From contig JAAXPZ010000032.1 of the NCBI GenBank assembly GCA_012329065.1, positions 1-44,377 on the forward strand: a stretch of 44,377 nucleotides of DNA. Reading direction: 5' to 3'. Shown in pieces: positions 3,466 through 19,987 of the stretch (position 1 is its first letter; every line of letters begins with the position of its first letter). This DNA comes from Sulfurovum sp. (GTDB lineage: Bacteria; Campylobacterota; Campylobacteria; Campylobacterales; Sulfurovaceae). The position numbers and the translations under genes are program-made. The notes under the pieces were generated by a model that worked only from the letters and a program-made list of their open reading frames with translations, was not told where the DNA came from and did no database searches.

Positions 3466-3654
3466 ATGAAAAAACTAACATTATTAGCAATCATTTTTTT
3501 AAACACTCTTCTGTTTTCTGGATGCACACAGATAGTAACTGCTCCAATCAAGTTAGCTGGTGCAGTTGTCGGCACAACTCTCGATGTTGCTGGCTCTGCT
3601 GGAGGTGCTGTGGTCAACACTGTTACAGGCGGCAGTGGTGATGAGGATGACTAA
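3466..3654 (+). CDS. Small predicted lipoprotein
   Basis: This 62-residue protein has a signal peptide and lipobox (NTLLFSGC, Cys20). The mature part is glycine/alanine/valine-rich (KLAGAVVGTTLDVAGSAGG) and ends in an acidic GSGDEDD tail. Similar tiny lipoproteins with a TAPIKLAGAVVGTT-like stretch occur in related bacteria, but their function is unknown to me. The gltX-like gene starts 2 nt after its stop, so the two may be co-transcribed. Transcription appears leaderless. Confidence 0.72.
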   Translation: MKKLTLLAIIFLNTLLFSGCTQIVTAPIKLAGAVVGTTLDVAGSAGGAVVNTVTGGSGDEDD

Positions 3655-3656
3655 AA

Positions 3657-4961
3657 TTGCTTAGGTTTGCAACTTCTTCTATCAGCGATATGCATATTGA
3701 CAATATGCATATCGCACTTATAAACTATATAATCTCGAGGCAAAGAGGTGAGCAATTTGTTGTGCGTATTGAAGATACAGACAAGAAAGACGATGTGGCA
3801 AGAAAAGATCAAGAGATGCTTGAGCTGCTCAAAAAATTTGCCCTCGAACAAGATCAACTCTTCTATCAAAGCGACAACCTAAGCAGACATCAGCAATTTG
3901 CCCTATCTCTTTTAGAGCAGAAAAAGGCATTTGCTTGTATTTGTACAGAAGAAGAGCTACAAGAAAATCGACAAAGAGCCAAACTAAACAAAGAAGTATA
4001 TCAATATAGTGGAAAATGCCTCAAGAATCAAGAAAATATTTCTCTACAAATAAAAGATAGCGAAACTCCATTTATTATCAGAATCAAAAAGCCTCAGAAT
4101 CCTATTGTTTTTATAGACAAAATCAAAGGTGAAATAAGCACAGAACCAAATGAGATAGATAACTTTGTTATACTTGAAGCTGATGGTGTACCGACACAAA
4201 CTTTTGCTATTGCTTGTGATGACATGCTTATGGATATATCCATAATTATCCGCAATGTAGATTATGCGAACAACACCCCCAAGCAGATACATATCAAAAA
4301 CTCCCTAGGCTATACTGCCCAAACTAAATATGTACATCTGCCTACCATACTGAACGAGTCAAGCAAAAAAGATGATACATACTCTATAAAATGGTTACTA
4401 GAGCAAGGTTTTCTGCCAGATACTATAATCAATTATCTCATATTCATCAGCGATGAAACACCTAAAGAGATATTCAGATTGCCTGATGCTATAGATTGGT
4501 TTAGCCTAAACAATATCTATAAAAGTCCTGCCAAGTTTGATATTGATAAGCTACGATCTATCAATAGAAAGCATCTTGGTCTCATGGAAGATATAGCACT
4601 ATCAAAAATATTTGGGTTTGCAGATGCAGACATAGGGAAGTTACTCAAAATCTACCTAGGTGAGTTAAGCACAATCAATGAACTTGACGGTAAAATACAA
4701 GCTATTTTTGCAACAAAAGCACTAGATAAGGAATGGAGTGATGAAATGAAAACTATTTCTAAACATATCCAAGAAGCTCCTATGATTGACTTGTTTGATG
4801 AGTTCAAAAGTTATATTTCATTAAAAAGTGGTTTTAAAGGAGAAAACTTTTTGATACCACTTCACCTACTAATGACAGGGGCTAACAATGGGCCAGAGCT
4901 AAGCGATATATATCCACTATTGAAGCCATACATTACAGAAGTAACGAGGATTAAAACATGA
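3657..4961 (+). CDS. gltX: Glutamyl-tRNA synthetase-like protein with degenerate catalytic motifs
   Basis: This 434-residue protein aligns along its whole length with bacterial GluRS from memory: RIEDTD (38-43), CICTEEEL, KPQNPIVFIDKIKGEIS, a DDMLMDIS block, NTPKQIHI, KSPAKFDIDKLR and a C-terminal anticodon-binding part ending GPELSDIYPLLKPY. The catalytic signatures are broken. The usual APSPTGxxHIGN reads ATSSISDMHIDN (5-16). The KKMSKRDD loop reads SSKKDD, lacking MSKR (about 235-240). The pocket motif TPTYxFA reads VPTQTFA. It is therefore probably inactive in aminoacylation, although the frame is open. The start is TTG at 3657, giving the family-typical MLRFA N-terminus. Its position before yggT and slt is the normal gltX site in Campylobacter as I recall, so this looks like the syntenic gene that has degenerated. 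Confidence 0.88.
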   Translation: MLRFATSSISDMHIDNMHIALINYIISRQRGEQFVVRIEDTDKKDDVARKDQEMLELLKKFALEQDQLFYQSDNLSRHQQFALSLLEQKKAFACICTEEELQENRQRAKLNKEVYQYSGKCLKNQENISLQIKDSETPFIIRIKKPQNPIVFIDKIKGEISTEPNEIDNFVILEADGVPTQTFAIACDDMLMDISIIIRNVDYANNTPKQIHIKNSLGYTAQTKYVHLPTILNESSKKDDTYSIKWLLEQGFLPDTIINYLIFISDETPKEIFRLPDAIDWFSLNNIYKSPAKFDIDKLRSINRKHLGLMEDIALSKIFGFADADIGKLLKIYLGELSTINELDGKIQAIFATKALDKEWSDEMKTISKHIQEAPMIDLFDEFKSYISLKSGFKGENFLIPLHLLMTGANNGPELSDIYPLLKPYITEVTRIKT

Positions 4962-5218
4962 TAGAACTATTTTGCTGGGTACTGAATGCTGTGGTATCAA
5001 TATATATATGGATACTGATTATTGCCGTACTTATGACATACTTCCATCCCAATCCATACAATCAAGCTGTACAGTTTATCTATCGCATTACAGAACCAGT
5101 TTTTAGATATGCTAGAAGATATCTATCTTTTCTTATTATAAACGGCATAGATTTTTCACCTATTGCTGTGATCCTAGCATTGCAGTTCGTTCCTCGGATT
5201 GTCTGTTCTGTATTCTAG
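4958..5218 (+). CDS. YggT family membrane protein
   Basis: This 86-residue protein has two hydrophobic stretches (about 5-28 and 60-84) around the family motif NPYNQAVQFIYRITEPVFRY, matching the YggT/YlmG family. Members are small inner-membrane proteins linked to osmotic tolerance and, in some lineages, to division or photosystem assembly; the biochemical role is unknown. The ATG overlaps the upstream gltX-like stop (ATGA), indicating translational coupling. Confidence 0.87.
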   Translation: MIELFCWVLNAVVSIYIWILIIAVLMTYFHPNPYNQAVQFIYRITEPVFRYARRYLSFLIINGIDFSPIAVILALQFVPRIVCSVF

Positions 5219-5225
5219 GGTTATC

Positions 5226-6770
5226 ATGAAGCTTATTCTAATTGCTATATTACTATCAGTCACACTATTGCAAGTTCAGGCCAAAAACTTCAGCTATGAG
5301 CAAATAGCAGAGATGCCTAAAAGTATAGAAAAAGATTATTATATCTGGAGACTACTCAAACAAAAAAATACCAGTAAAAAAGAAGCTCAAAAAATACTCA
5401 AGGATGTAAAACACATCAGTGTAAAAATCAAAAAAGCTTACAAAAAAAAGGTTGGTAAAAATCCACCTCCTCCAAAAGGCTGGTATATCATACATGTAAG
5501 TCCAGAGATAAAAGCAAAACGAAAAAAAAGAAAAGCTAAAGTAAAGGCTATAACAAAAAGTAAGAATCCCTTTGACAGATGGATGAAGCTCAGCAACTCA
5601 GATAAAATATATGTTTTCAATAATGCTGGCAAAGATGGCAGAAAACTTTTTGATCGTCCTGTCTCAAAAGAGTTATGGCAGAAACTATCTCTCTATTCAA
5701 AATTTGATAAATGTATCAAAAAAATAAACAAAGAAAACTTGAAAAAGCTAAAAAAATCTTTCATTTACCCTCCTCTGGAGAAAAGTGGGTTAGACTATCA
5801 AGCACTATCTATATTGGCTTTTTATACACTTAGAAGAGATGAAGAACAAACAGCCATGAAATACTTTAAATTGGCTCTAAAAAAAGCTAAGAGCAGAGAA
5901 AGTATCGACAAGATACTATTTTGGCAGTACATGATAAGTAAAGACAAAAAATATCTGAAAAAAATTGTTACTAGCTACGATGTCAATATATATACGCTAC
6001 TTGCTAGAGATTTTCTAAAATTAGAATATCCAGAATACATTACTCCAGCACTGCCAAAAGTCAAACTCTTAAGCGAAGATAAGATAAGCAGCCCTATCTA
6101 CTGGGCAAAGCTCAAAAAAAAGATATTCTCAAAGTCAACCAATCTTGATAAATTAACAGAAAAATATAACTCATATGGTACCGTGGGTTTCTATAGCTAT
6201 ATCAAATCAAAACAGAGTAGATACAAAGAGCACTATTTCCCCATGCCATATCGCGATCTACTCTCAAAACTTCCAAAAACCCGCCAAGCGATCATGTATG
6301 CTATAGCTAGACAAGAGAGTAGATTTATCCCTGCTTCGGTCTCAAGCTCTTATGCACTCGGGATGATGCAAATCATGCCATTTTTGGTAGATCATTTAGC
6401 AAAACAGAGAAAAGAGGAGATAGATTATGATGATATGTTCAATCCTCGCACCTCGCTCATATACGCCAATGAACATATGAACTATCTGACCAAATGGCTA
6501 CAGCATCCTCTATATATAGCTTACGCATACAATGCTGGCATAGGTTTTACTAGCAAAATGCTACGCAAAAAAGATCTCTTTGTTCACAACAAGGGGTATG
6601 AGCCATATCTCAGTATAGAGAAACTACCAAATTCTCAAGCCAATAAATATGGCAAGCATGTGCTTGTTAATTATGTAATATATATGAATAAGCTGGGAGT
6701 CCAATTGCGAATGATTGATCTGCTGTCTACTCTACACATCCCATCAAAAACAGATAAGTTTAGAAAATAA
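5226..6770 (+). CDS. slt: Soluble lytic murein transglycosylase (Slt type)
   Basis: This 514-residue secreted protein has a signal peptide (MKLILIAILLSVTLLQVQA), a long lysine-rich helical middle resembling the alpha-superhelix of Slt70, and a C-terminal SLT catalytic domain. Domain motifs seen: AIARQESRF (catalytic Glu), ALGMMQIMP and AYNAGIGF. It cleaves the MurNAc-GlcNAc bond forming 1,6-anhydromuropeptides during wall remodelling. An upstream in-frame ATG at 5199 lies inside yggT and would put nine residues before the signal peptide, so 5226 is preferred. Its place after gltX/yggT matches Campylobacter gene order as I recall. Confidence 0.92.
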   Translation: MKLILIAILLSVTLLQVQAKNFSYEQIAEMPKSIEKDYYIWRLLKQKNTSKKEAQKILKDVKHISVKIKKAYKKKVGKNPPPPKGWYIIHVSPEIKAKRKKRKAKVKAITKSKNPFDRWMKLSNSDKIYVFNNAGKDGRKLFDRPVSKELWQKLSLYSKFDKCIKKINKENLKKLKKSFIYPPLEKSGLDYQALSILAFYTLRRDEEQTAMKYFKLALKKAKSRESIDKILFWQYMISKDKKYLKKIVTSYDVNIYTLLARDFLKLEYPEYITPALPKVKLLSEDKISSPIYWAKLKKKIFSKSTNLDKLTEKYNSYGTVGFYSYIKSKQSRYKEHYFPMPYRDLLSKLPKTRQAIMYAIARQESRFIPASVSSSYALGMMQIMPFLVDHLAKQRKEEIDYDDMFNPRTSLIYANEHMNYLTKWLQHPLYIAYAYNAGIGFTSKMLRKKDLFVHNKGYEPYLSIEKLPNSQANKYGKHVLVNYVIYMNKLGVQLRMIDLLSTLHIPSKTDKFRK

Positions 6771-14502: not shown

Positions 14503-14775
14503 ATGAATGCAGTAAAAGTACGTAAAAACTTCATCTTAGACAAAGAAGTTGTCGAAAAAGCACAAGATATTTTAAAATCACAACACAAAAACTTTACAGA
14601 GGTGATAAACCTTTACTTCAAAGCCATCGTGAAAGACCCTTCCATTTTAAAAACCATAGAAAAGTCTGCTAATAAGCGTACAGGTTCGTTTATAGGGTTG
14701 CTTGATGGACAAGTCGGAGATGCTGACTACAAAGAGATGAAAAAAGAGTATATCACTAAGACAGAGAAGCACTAG
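14503..14775 (+). CDS. Ribbon-helix-helix type antitoxin (DUF6364-like)
   Basis: This 90-residue protein has an N-terminal pattern of strand then two helices (VRKNFILDKEVVEKAQDIL, then FTEVINLYFKAIV) fitting RHH DNA-binding proteins, and a basic/acidic C-terminal tail that would wrap the toxin. It is followed with a 1-nt overlap (TAGTG) by a PIN-domain toxin. The perfect palindrome just upstream supports an autoregulator role. Family assignment is by pattern only. Confidence 0.75.
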   Translation: MNAVKVRKNFILDKEVVEKAQDILKSQHKNFTEVINLYFKAIVKDPSILKTIEKSANKRTGSFIGLLDGQVGDADYKEMKKEYITKTEKH

Positions 14776-15191
14776 TGAAGGTTTTTTTAGATGCCAATAT
14801 TTGCCTAGATTTGTTAGATACTACTAGACCCACTTCGTCACGTTCTGTCACGTGGTACATGAAACATAAAGACGACAGTGCTTTGAGCTTTTACTTTTCT
14901 GGAGACTTCATAACAACATTTTACTATGTGTTAAGTGAAAGACGCAAGATAGACAAACAAAAGGTAGTCACTGCCATAGATGCCCTATGCTTTGAGATAG
15001 AACCTTTTTACATTAATCATAATGATTTTCTAGAAGCTAAAGATGCCTTTGTCAATCATAAGTTAGACGATTTTGAAGATTTGCTCATACTGCATTCTGC
15101 TGTGCGTTGTGGGTGTGATAGTTTCTTGACTAGCGACATTGAGATTTTGGCGTTAAAGTCGTTTGAGACTATGCAGATAGAGGGAGTGTAG
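14775..15191 (+). CDS. PIN-domain RNase toxin (VapC-like)
   Basis: This 138-residue protein has the PIN acidic residues in order: Asp6 in VFLDANICLDLL, Glu55 in LSERRK, the DDFEDLLI cluster (98-102) and Asp121 in TSDIEIL. PIN toxins are Mg-dependent ribonucleases cutting tRNA or rRNA. The start is GTG overlapping the antitoxin TAG, which gives coupled, lower toxin translation. The catalytic set looks complete, so this module should be active, unlike the fic module beside it. Confidence 0.85.
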   Translation: MKVFLDANICLDLLDTTRPTSSRSVTWYMKHKDDSALSFYFSGDFITTFYYVLSERRKIDKQKVVTAIDALCFEIEPFYINHNDFLEAKDAFVNHKLDDFEDLLILHSAVRCGCDSFLTSDIEILALKSFETMQIEGV

Positions 15192-17978: not shown

Positions 17979-19151
17979 CTACAATTTATCCTCTTCACTA
18001 GACAAGAAATTAGCACAATTAATCATATCTTCAACTAGCTCATATTCTGGAAAACCGATGCGTCTCCAGTTGCTGACATCAATACGATCAAGCACTTTTG
18101 AGTGTTCTCCTGTGCTGCCTCTAGCTTGGCAATTACGCTCACGACATAGACGATCAATCTCATCAAACCCGACGGCTTCTATTAGTTTAGGTACCATGAT
18201 ATGAACTGATCCACGCATACCTGTACCGATATTGGATGGACAACAAGTAACAGCACCAAATTTTGGATGCATCATAAACACATCATCCTCAGCAGAAATT
18301 TCTCGTACAGCATCCTCAATCAGCTTAGCTCCAGCACTAAGACGGGAAAAAACTGCCTTGACATCTCCACCCATCTCCATGGATATGATACGCAAATGGT
18401 CACCTTCGTTGACCCAGTTGATAAATGTTTTGTCTTTGTTTAGATAAACACCTCGTCCATGTGGCCAATACTCATGATATCCGCTAGCAGCTTGCATCTT
18501 ATCTTTTCCGCGAAATAAAAAATGTCCGTCTACAAGAGCTTGTCTTTCGTCATTTGACATTTTAGAATGAAGATAAAAATCACCAGCCAAGTCAGAATCG
18601 GTATCAATTTGTTTATAAACTTTAGCCATCAAGCCTACTACTTCTTCTCGACTTTCCCTTGTGCCTCCAGGGTTAAGCGGAAACATTGACAAATTGCGTG
18701 CAATGCGAATGCGAGTTGAGACAATTTTGCTTTGAGCACTATCACTCAGCTCAACAGAAATCCTAGAAGGATCCATTCTCTGTGAAGGTGTACCTTTGAG
18801 TAAGCTTCCCTCTTTCATAGAAAAGCCTTTATGATATGCCTCTATGACTGGGTGAAAAAAATCAGCAAAATCATCATAAGACTCTTTATCTCCCGCATGA
18901 CAACCCACAAAACTTTCAGGGTATAATACCCCTGTATTTATCGCTCTTGCCAATGTCCATTTTGCAGGACCAGAGCTTTCGATATCTTTATATTTTTCCC
19001 AAACCTCTGGCGTACACACTTGAGCACATAGTGAAGTATGCTCGCTTGTTCTGGCAGTCTCTAGTTTTTTTACTGGATATTCATTCTTGGCTAATGATTC
19101 CTCTATCTTTAAATCATAGTACGGATCAAATCCATCTTTTTTTCCAAACAT
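17979..19151 (-). CDS. ATP:guanido phosphotransferase (arginine-kinase-type phosphagen kinase)
   Basis: This 390-residue protein spans a complete phosphagen kinase. The N-terminal domain has FVGCHAGDKESYDDFADFFHP (82-101), the arginine-kinase-like substrate loop and D-E-SY block. The catalytic domain has STRIRIARNLSMFPL (145-159), NEGDHLRIISME (248-259), CPSNIGT with the reactive cysteine Cys304, and RGSTGEH with Glu349. The enzyme reversibly moves phosphate from ATP to a guanidino compound, buffering ATP. It is not McsB, which lacks the N-terminal domain. The second Glu of the animal NEEDH motif is Gly here. The family is rare and patchy in bacteria, consistent with horizontal acquisition. 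A sodium-channel gene lies 41 nt upstream on the same strand. Confidence 0.94.
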   Translation of the reverse strand: MFGKKDGFDPYYDLKIEESLAKNEYPVKKLETARTSEHTSLCAQVCTPEVWEKYKDIESSGPAKWTLARAINTGVLYPESFVGCHAGDKESYDDFADFFHPVIEAYHKGFSMKEGSLLKGTPSQRMDPSRISVELSDSAQSKIVSTRIRIARNLSMFPLNPGGTRESREEVVGLMAKVYKQIDTDSDLAGDFYLHSKMSNDERQALVDGHFLFRGKDKMQAASGYHEYWPHGRGVYLNKDKTFINWVNEGDHLRIISMEMGGDVKAVFSRLSAGAKLIEDAVREISAEDDVFMMHPKFGAVTCCPSNIGTGMRGSVHIMVPKLIEAVGFDEIDRLCRERNCQARGSTGEHSKVLDRIDVSNWRRIGFPEYELVEDMINCANFLSSEEDKL

Positions 19152-19192: not shown

Positions 19193-19987
19193 CTACTTTA
19201 CTGTCAATATTCTTTTAAGTTCTCTTATATCATCCCTTAGAGAGCTTATCTCTGCTTGTAGCGTATCATCTCCGCTATGTATCTCATCTATCACATGATC
19301 TTCTTTATCTGAATTTAACTCACCCATGGCATCTACTACCAAGGCTATAATCAAATTGACGATGATAAAGGTTGTCAAGAATATAAATGGCACAAAGTAT
19401 ATCCAAGCCAGTGGGTATATCTCCATGACAGGACGCACAATACCCATAGACCATGACTCCAGTGTCATAATCTGAAACAGACTAAAAAAGGACTCTCCAA
19501 GAGTACCAAACCACTGCGGAAAATCTTCGCCAAATAGCTGTGTGGATATGATGGCAAATATATAGAAAAAGAGCGTAAGCAAAGCTCCTATAGAGATTAT
19601 GCCTGGTATCACACTCAATAGTGCAGCTATTATTTTTCGCATTTGTGGCACTATGGTCACTAGCCTAAACAACCTAAGCACTCTCAATACTCTAAAGATC
19701 TCAAACCCTGCACCTGTGGGGACTAGAGAAATGGCTACTATTGTAAAATCAAACAATGACCACGGATCTTTGAAAAAGGATATTCTGTAAGTGTATATTC
19801 TCAAAATTATCTCTATTGTAAACATACTGATGACAAATAGATTGAATGCATCAAAAAGCCATTGATAGCTTATTGAAAGTTCTCTTGATGTATCAAGCCC
19901 CATTGTAATGCCGTTGATGATTATCAATGCGGTGATAAAGTATTGGAAATATAGATTTTCTACTAGATTTTTTATGATACTATACAT
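19193..19987 (-). CDS. Voltage-gated sodium channel, NaChBac/NavAb type
   Basis: This 264-residue protein has six membrane segments. The voltage sensor S4 is [13 protein letters not shown] with Arg99, 102, 105 and 108 at every third position. The pore selectivity filter is TLESWS (175-180), the same as I recall for NavAb, with pore helices before and after. S6 is [21 protein letters not shown], and the C-terminus forms a helical bundle ([19 protein letters not shown]) suited to a tetrameric coiled coil. It should form a homotetrameric Na+ channel in the inner membrane. AGGAGA precedes the ATG. The arginine kinase gene follows in the same direction. Confidence 0.95.

Follow-up and report, generated by a model that had tools for sequence, protein, structure and literature searches.

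Organization of the gltX2 locus

The window, meaning the whole 44,377-nucleotide stretch of Sulfurovum sp. contig JAAXPZ010000032.1 analysed here, carries on its forward strand gltX2, a gene of the glutamyl-tRNA synthetase (GluRS) family found between a small lipoprotein-like gene and the pair yggT-slt (Table 1). Its 434 codons are free of internal stops and its TTG start codon coincides with the ATG of most relatives.

Table 1. Features of the gltX2 locus in window coordinates
Feature	Position	Strand	Evidence or remark
Small lipoprotein-like gene (DUF6726), stop 2 nt before gltX2 TTG	3466..3654	+	
gltX2, GluRS2 type with dead active site	3657..4961	+	ORF, family match, AlphaFold fold
Former HIGH motif, ATSSISDMHIDN (intact: APSPTGDMHIGN)	3669..3704	+	alignment
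Zinc-binding region, Cys94, Cys96, Cys121	3936..4019	+	kept in this copy and in 93-95% of dead ones
Former TPTYNF glutamate/ATP pocket motif, VPTQTF	4188..4205	+	alignment
Former RGEDH motif, RNVDY	4251..4265	+	alignment
KMSKS loop remnant SSKKDD, four residues deleted	4359..4376	+	alignment, model
Anticodon-binding-domain helices, residues 297-354	4545..4718	+	most constrained part of dead copies
C-terminal helix, residues 415-429, near-invariant Tyr419, Tyr425, Glu428	4899..4943	+	
yggT, ATG overlapping gltX2 stop (ATGA)	4958..5218	+	PF02325
Soluble lytic transglycosylase (slt), conserved next gene	5226..6770	+	PF01464

A GluRS2 without its catalytic motifs

The gltX2 product matches nearly the whole NCBIfam model TIGR00464 gltX_bact (318.8 bits, cut-off 289.95) and Pfam tRNA-synt_1c (9e-55). 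Its AlphaFold model has the full GluRS fold (pLDDT 94.4, pTM 0.89) and matches GluRS structures along its full length (Z about 35), which bears out a sequence-only reading of the gene as a full-length, recognisable GluRS. The same reading reported altered class I signatures in an open frame, and alignment with 36 orthologues confirms them. The HIGH motif, near-uniformly APSPTGDMHIGN in the orthologues, is ATSSISDMHIDN in the window protein, TPTYNF has become VPTQTF, and the KMSKS loop, xxKKMSKRDD in orthologues, is reduced by a four-residue deletion to SSKKDD, the lowest-confidence loop of the model. RGEDH, whose loss had been overlooked, reads RNVDY. HIGH has lost its Gly, TPTY its Tyr, RGEDH most of its residues and KKMSKR its KKM part; RIEDT(D), DDM and KSPAKFDIDKLR are retained. 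The protein passes the gltX_bact cut-off despite the absence of HIGH, KMSKS and the glutamate-binding Tyr/Arg. The lesions are not alignment artefacts: they lie inside well-aligned flanks, and three other genomes of the genus encode full-length copies (420-428 aa, 45-48% identity) that bear different lesions in the same motifs. The persistence of Arg3, Asp40 and the overall fold, together with a few intact copies in GlnRS-containing genomes of the order (see below), would suit a GltX2 that has stayed an active synthetase despite its unusual motifs. The residues missing from the window copy and the deletion of the KMSKS loop in about 70% of dead copies make this reading hardly credible.

HIGN is the GluRS2 type of the motif and HVGG the GluRS1 type (PMC3927822). 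Intact relatives of the window protein carry HIGN and the other GluRS of its genome carries HVGG; the window gene is therefore assigned as GltX2. It groups with HIGN-type GluRS2 apart from GluRS1, lies at the yggT-slt locus, and its product is 41-57% identical to the Campylobacterota GltX2 loci L011-L046 and 33% identical to its own GluRS1. These sequence relations make it the orthologue of the GluRS2 of epsilonproteobacteria, which is the GluRS specific to tRNA-Gln in the indirect Gln-tRNA pathway. The orthologous GluRS2 of Helicobacter pylori (PMC3927822) shares its fold, zinc cysteines, length and, in the intact relatives, HIGN; the window protein differs by its destroyed catalytic and substrate motifs and by the co-occurrence of GlnRS. 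The catalytic-domain fold also matches that of GluQRS (YadB; Z 28), likewise derived from GluRS. However, GluQRS is catalytic and lacks the anticodon domain that the window protein possesses, and the GluQRS profile gives 142.5 bits, below its cut-off of 276.7.

Other enzymes for Glu-, Gln- and Asn-tRNA in the genome

GlnRS makes Gln-tRNA directly, in which case GatCAB remains for Asn-tRNA and a tRNA-Gln-specific GluRS2 is left without catalytic duty. The window genome (1.94 Mb in 82 contigs, 100% complete) encodes an intact GluRS1 with HVGG and KLSKR (contig C62), a GlnRS of 751 residues (contig C24) that carries PHIGH and VMSKR and whose C-terminal extension is of the kind seen in YqeY fusions, and GatB. 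No AsnRS exceeds the cut-off in any of the 28 genomes tested (this one and 27 relatives). The sequence-only reading had proposed takeover by a second GluRS. A second, intact gltX does exist on C62, but it is the ordinary GluRS1 and not the taker. There is strong support for a takeover followed by loss of catalysis, with a horizontally acquired GlnRS-YqeY as the taker.

The role of dead GltX2 may be linked to GatCAB. Four assemblies (G018, G022, G056 and G122) in which GatB falls below the cut-off were considered as cases of dead GltX2 retained where GatCAB had been lost and were rejected; they probably reflect assembly gaps because AsnRS is absent from 28 of 28 genomes.

Motif loss follows GlnRS across the Campylobacterales

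The search covered about 500 Campylobacterales genomes. In the family of the window genome (f1), GlnRS scores over the cut-off in 117 of 175 genomes and GltX2 scores descend gradually from 831 to 297 bits with internal stops absent. All 133 copies first fetched from this family are single uninterrupted ORFs in which motif loss tracks GlnRS. An order-wide sample of 398 genomes revealed GlnRS also in families f3, f5, f7, f8, f9, f15 and f18. When 80 genomes with GlnRS are set against 80 without, the former have degraded GltX2 copies while those of GlnRS-lacking members of the same genera are perfect, a same-genus contrast seen in f3, f7, f9 and f15. The GlnRS-lacking loci fetched were the best-scoring ones, a bias toward intact copies; the remaining GlnRS-lacking genomes are also high-scoring, except for a few split, cut or missing genes.

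The motif state, judged at the tested catalytic residues, was counted in 241 GltX2 copies of at least 350 aa each. Those accompanied by GlnRS (n=169) comprise 145 dead, 13 partial and 11 intact copies, while those without detected GlnRS (n=72) comprise 58 intact, 13 dead and 1 partial (Fisher p about 7e-31, relatedness ignored). The 14 non-intact copies without detected GlnRS are found mostly in MAGs of 70-86% completeness, and four of these 14 cases hold GlnRS fragments; the 11 intact copies beside GlnRS would represent recent GlnRS gains. Among 39 single-contig genomes, 28 dead and 2 partial copies all coexist with GlnRS and 9 intact copies are all found where it is lacking. The dead proteins are nearly always stop-free and span 380-435 codons.

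Takeover by GlnRS with death of the GltX2 active site is close to certain. The GlnRS-YqeY gene was acquired horizontally in many Campylobacterales lineages, and the dead GltX2 state, as called from motifs, extends across at least five families and well over a hundred species. No paper describing a dead GluRS2 in Campylobacterota was found among the open-access papers searched.

Independent losses of the active site

A GltX2 tree was built without the motif columns. Families f1, f3 and f18 are each monophyletic in this tree, and f7 and f15 each form one clade that includes one extra reference; dead and intact copies are mixed within all of them. For 55 of the 58 dead copies that lie outside f1, the nearest intact copy is a member of the same family. 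Dead copies of f7 often retain the final Y of TPTYNY, as do the intact copies of that family. Since families hold together with dead and intact members mixed, loss of the active site is convergent. Horizontal transfer of a cassette of glnS and dead gltX2 was rejected as a shared cause because families stay together in the motif-free tree. At least five independent origins of dead GltX2 follow; f5 and f9 would raise the number to seven, but intact copies of these families are missing from the tree.

The acquired glnS often adjoins gltX2 in f1, f15 and f18 (e.g. L117 and L125 in f1, L232 in f15, L308 in f18), mostly in divergent orientation in f1 and f15 and upstream on the same strand in f18, as if insertion of glnS at the gltX2 locus were favoured.

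Purifying selection on dead copies

Codon maximum likelihood, run on 18 copies of each state that come mostly from one genus, gives omega values of 0.159 for dead and 0.063 for intact copies, a 2.5-fold difference. Omega is 0.10-0.25 between sister copies whose dead motifs were inherited in common. Twenty non-overlapping dead pairs give 0.21 for the columns outside the motifs and 0.14 for reference residues 301-350. Motif columns fixed a priori, as columns picked for variability would be circular, reach 0.25 as compared to 0.21 for the rest; the idea that the motifs evolve more freely than the remainder after the first losses was thus set aside for lack of a visible difference in these pairs. 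Pairwise values over the whole set are higher (dead median 0.28, range 0.10-0.72; intact 0.11) and include poorly aligned and saturated pairs, so that the codon maximum likelihood values are preferred.

Neutral simulation at 0.1 substitutions per site introduces 5.4 stops on average and leaves less than 1% of runs stop-free. Together with the low omega this indicates that the frames are held by selection on the protein. Dead GltX2 is, by its codon substitution pattern, under purifying selection that is relaxed relative to the enzyme. The stops, frameshifts and neutral codon evolution of a pseudogene are not found in gltX2.

A GltX2 that became useless after GlnRS gain, its open frames just awaiting decay, would account for the 2.5-fold higher omega of dead copies and for the clean losses and truncations observed in f8 and f18. 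Such slow pseudogenisation conflicts with the 133 uninterrupted copies of f1, although identity within a genus is down to 45-48%, with the constraint between close sister pairs sharing inherited dead motifs and with the rarity of stop-free frames in the simulation; it is very unlikely. The early decay initially suggested for the window gene is likewise contradicted by the full-length copies of the same genus at this divergence, by omega values of 0.10-0.25 and by the presence of the dead state in more than 100 species.

Conserved and lost residues

The 158 dead copies have a mean pairwise identity of 46%, and 27 sites are at least 97% conserved among them after family weighting. These include Arg3, Asp40, Cys94, Cys96, Cys121, Asp189, Asn303, Ser316, Thr339, Tyr425 and Glu428. 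The lost columns fall largely into the binding motifs for ATP, glutamate and the tRNA 3' end. Among conserved columns outside the motifs, Lys/Arg positions were lost more often (11 of 23) than others (23 of 125; p = 0.005), and the Lys/Arg equivalent to residues 384, 394 and 396 of the window protein, in the C-terminal domain, are lost in most dead copies. The median net charge is -17 in dead and -7 in intact copies. Taken together, the conserved and lost residues speak against normal tRNA binding and for a kept fold and a kept interaction surface.

Reuse of the protein as a tRNA-binding pseudo-synthetase had been offered as the other explanation of the broken motifs. The reuse part fits better than decay; tRNA binding is weakened by the loss of conserved Lys/Arg and the acidity of the protein. 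A chaperone, sensor or competitor for tRNA-Gln or tRNA-Glu, which is a sub-case of a retained function, agrees with the anticodon-domain helices being the most constrained part and with the kept zinc cysteines, whose E. coli GluRS counterparts are in the domain that positions the acceptor arm (PMC4381286). The charge data make it doubtful. Overall, dead GltX2 probably has a retained non-catalytic function, as a protein scaffold or a tRNA binder. Its role seems more likely to be protein-binding than tRNA-binding, and a protein scaffold is our tentative choice, given a little less than even weight. The weaker constraint in dead than in intact copies is evidence against a retained function. A newly gained function was rejected, as conservation is higher in dead copies than in intact ones matched by family at just three sites; the unmatched comparison had hinted at more such sites and the matched one was used.

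Near the zinc cysteines, 44 of 158 dead copies and 0 of 69 intact ones have Cys in place of the Tyr117-equivalent (nt 4005-4007), which yields a four-cysteine site.

Possible coupling to yggT and slt, and loss of gltX2

The main rival explanation is that the gltX2 frame is kept by translational coupling to yggT and slt, on which stops or frameshifts in gltX2 would be polar, the product merely folding harmlessly without function. In every family and at almost all loci, whether the copy is dead or intact, the gltX2 stop codon either overlaps the start of yggT or lies very close to it, and yggT is present in most genomes with clean gltX2 loss. Both slt and a YGGT-family gene are among the fitness determinants found by Tn-seq in C. 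jejuni (PMC5438104). Dead copies keep core residues and lose Lys/Arg, and a kept core with lost ligand residues is a pattern that selection for foldability alone also gives. Coupling alone, however, predicts omega near 1 away from stops, whereas 0.16-0.21 is observed. It also leaves aside the near-invariant polar or charged residues that persist (Arg3, Asp40, the zinc Cys, Asp189, Asn303, Thr339 and Glu428), and evolution could delete gltX2 in frame but rarely does. We consider this explanation improbable, if less so than decay.

Clean gltX2 deletions occur mainly in two families: yggT without gltX2 is found in f8 and in the f18 genomes G276, G309, G354, G364 and G369, with glnS directly upstream of yggT in G309. 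Two further copies (G205, G291) are truncated in their C-terminal half. The dead gene is therefore dispensable in some backgrounds, a point against a retained function. Apparent total loss in G028, G156 and G208 was not counted as yggT is absent too and the locus is maybe unassembled.

In G329 (f18, 100% complete) yggT is present, and a search for GltX2 and GlnRS found neither. In the single-contig, GlnRS-lacking genome G206, GltX2 is split over two overlapping frames (C1:1540348-1541633), either a sequencing error or a real frameshift. In the complete genome of Candidatus Thiovulum stygium (CP091137.1, L044) the GltX2 match at 4001-5292 spans a number of nucleotides not divisible by three and the frame breaks ahead of the KMSKS region.

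A proposed retained function exposed by GlnRS

The retained function favoured above suggests the following course. An ancestor would have acquired GlnRS-YqeY and, assuming that this GlnRS is active, charged tRNA-Gln directly; as AsnRS was not found, GatCAB would remain for Asn-tRNA. The ATP/glutamate/3'-end pocket of GluRS2 would then have been released from selection, with drift of HIGH, TPTY and RGEDH and frequent deletion of the KMSKS loop. GltX2 would still be made in the cell and kept folded, full-length and with its zinc cysteines under purifying selection for a non-catalytic, presumably mainly protein-binding role of the residue 297-354 and C-terminal helix regions. Because retention is independent in at least five families, this role most likely predates GlnRS and is common to competent GluRS2. 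Whether a second, non-catalytic GluRS2 function as old as the Campylobacterales is exposed where GlnRS relieves the protein of catalysis is a question on which we are evenly divided; if so, the GluRS2 of Helicobacter and Campylobacter would carry the same hidden function.

Relation to known systems

Bacterial synthetase relatives kept without aminoacylation are represented by HisZ, the HisRS paralogue that regulates HisG (PMC9437257), and the insect mitochondrial SerRS-like protein SLIMP is likewise kept for a role outside aminoacylation (PMC9437257). Dead GltX2 shares with them synthetase descent, loss of catalytic motifs and purifying selection. HisZ, however, is related to class II synthetases, has a known partner enzyme and arose via duplication, and SLIMP is an animal SerRS paralogue, whereas GltX2 is a class I orthologue that died repeatedly in place at its own locus.

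Thermotoga maritima has a non-functional GluRS2 that fails to charge either tRNA-Glu or tRNA-Gln (PMC3927822). This protein is reported to be a duplicated GluRS1 catalytic domain of the HphiGG type (PMC3927822), in contrast to the window protein whose ancestor was a functional HIGN-type GluRS2: the intact orthologues carry HIGN, and HVGG is found in the GluRS1 of the genome.

A survey from 2014 pointed to the coexistence of GlnRS and GluRS2 in epsilonproteobacteria and proposed that GlnRS may be non-functional as GluRS2 is obligatory (PMC3927822). The motif data reverse this inference (PMC3927822): GluRS2 is dead in most such genomes, so GlnRS must work in them. In well over a hundred species the name "glutamate--tRNA ligase", which the family model will assign to dead GltX2, is probably incorrect. 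Lineages have repeatedly and independently retained a dead housekeeping enzyme, a natural experiment that sets the catalytic role of a synthetase apart from any second one, and moonlighting of a bacterial synthetase becomes directly testable in dead-GltX2 lineages.

Other genes in the window

Phosphagen kinases are unusual in bacteria. The window encodes an arginine/creatine kinase-like protein of this kind (17979-19151, minus strand; PF00217 5.5e-58, PF02807 2.2e-18), adjoined by a gene for a single-domain voltage-gated-type ion channel (19193-19987, minus strand; PF00520), as in NavBac. A histone-deacetylase-fold protein is coded at 735-1664 on the minus strand (PF00850, 6e-81). An AbiEii-type nucleotidyltransferase near the contig end (43258-44253, minus strand) and a PIN-domain protein (14775-15191, plus strand) are possible toxin-antitoxin or defence parts.
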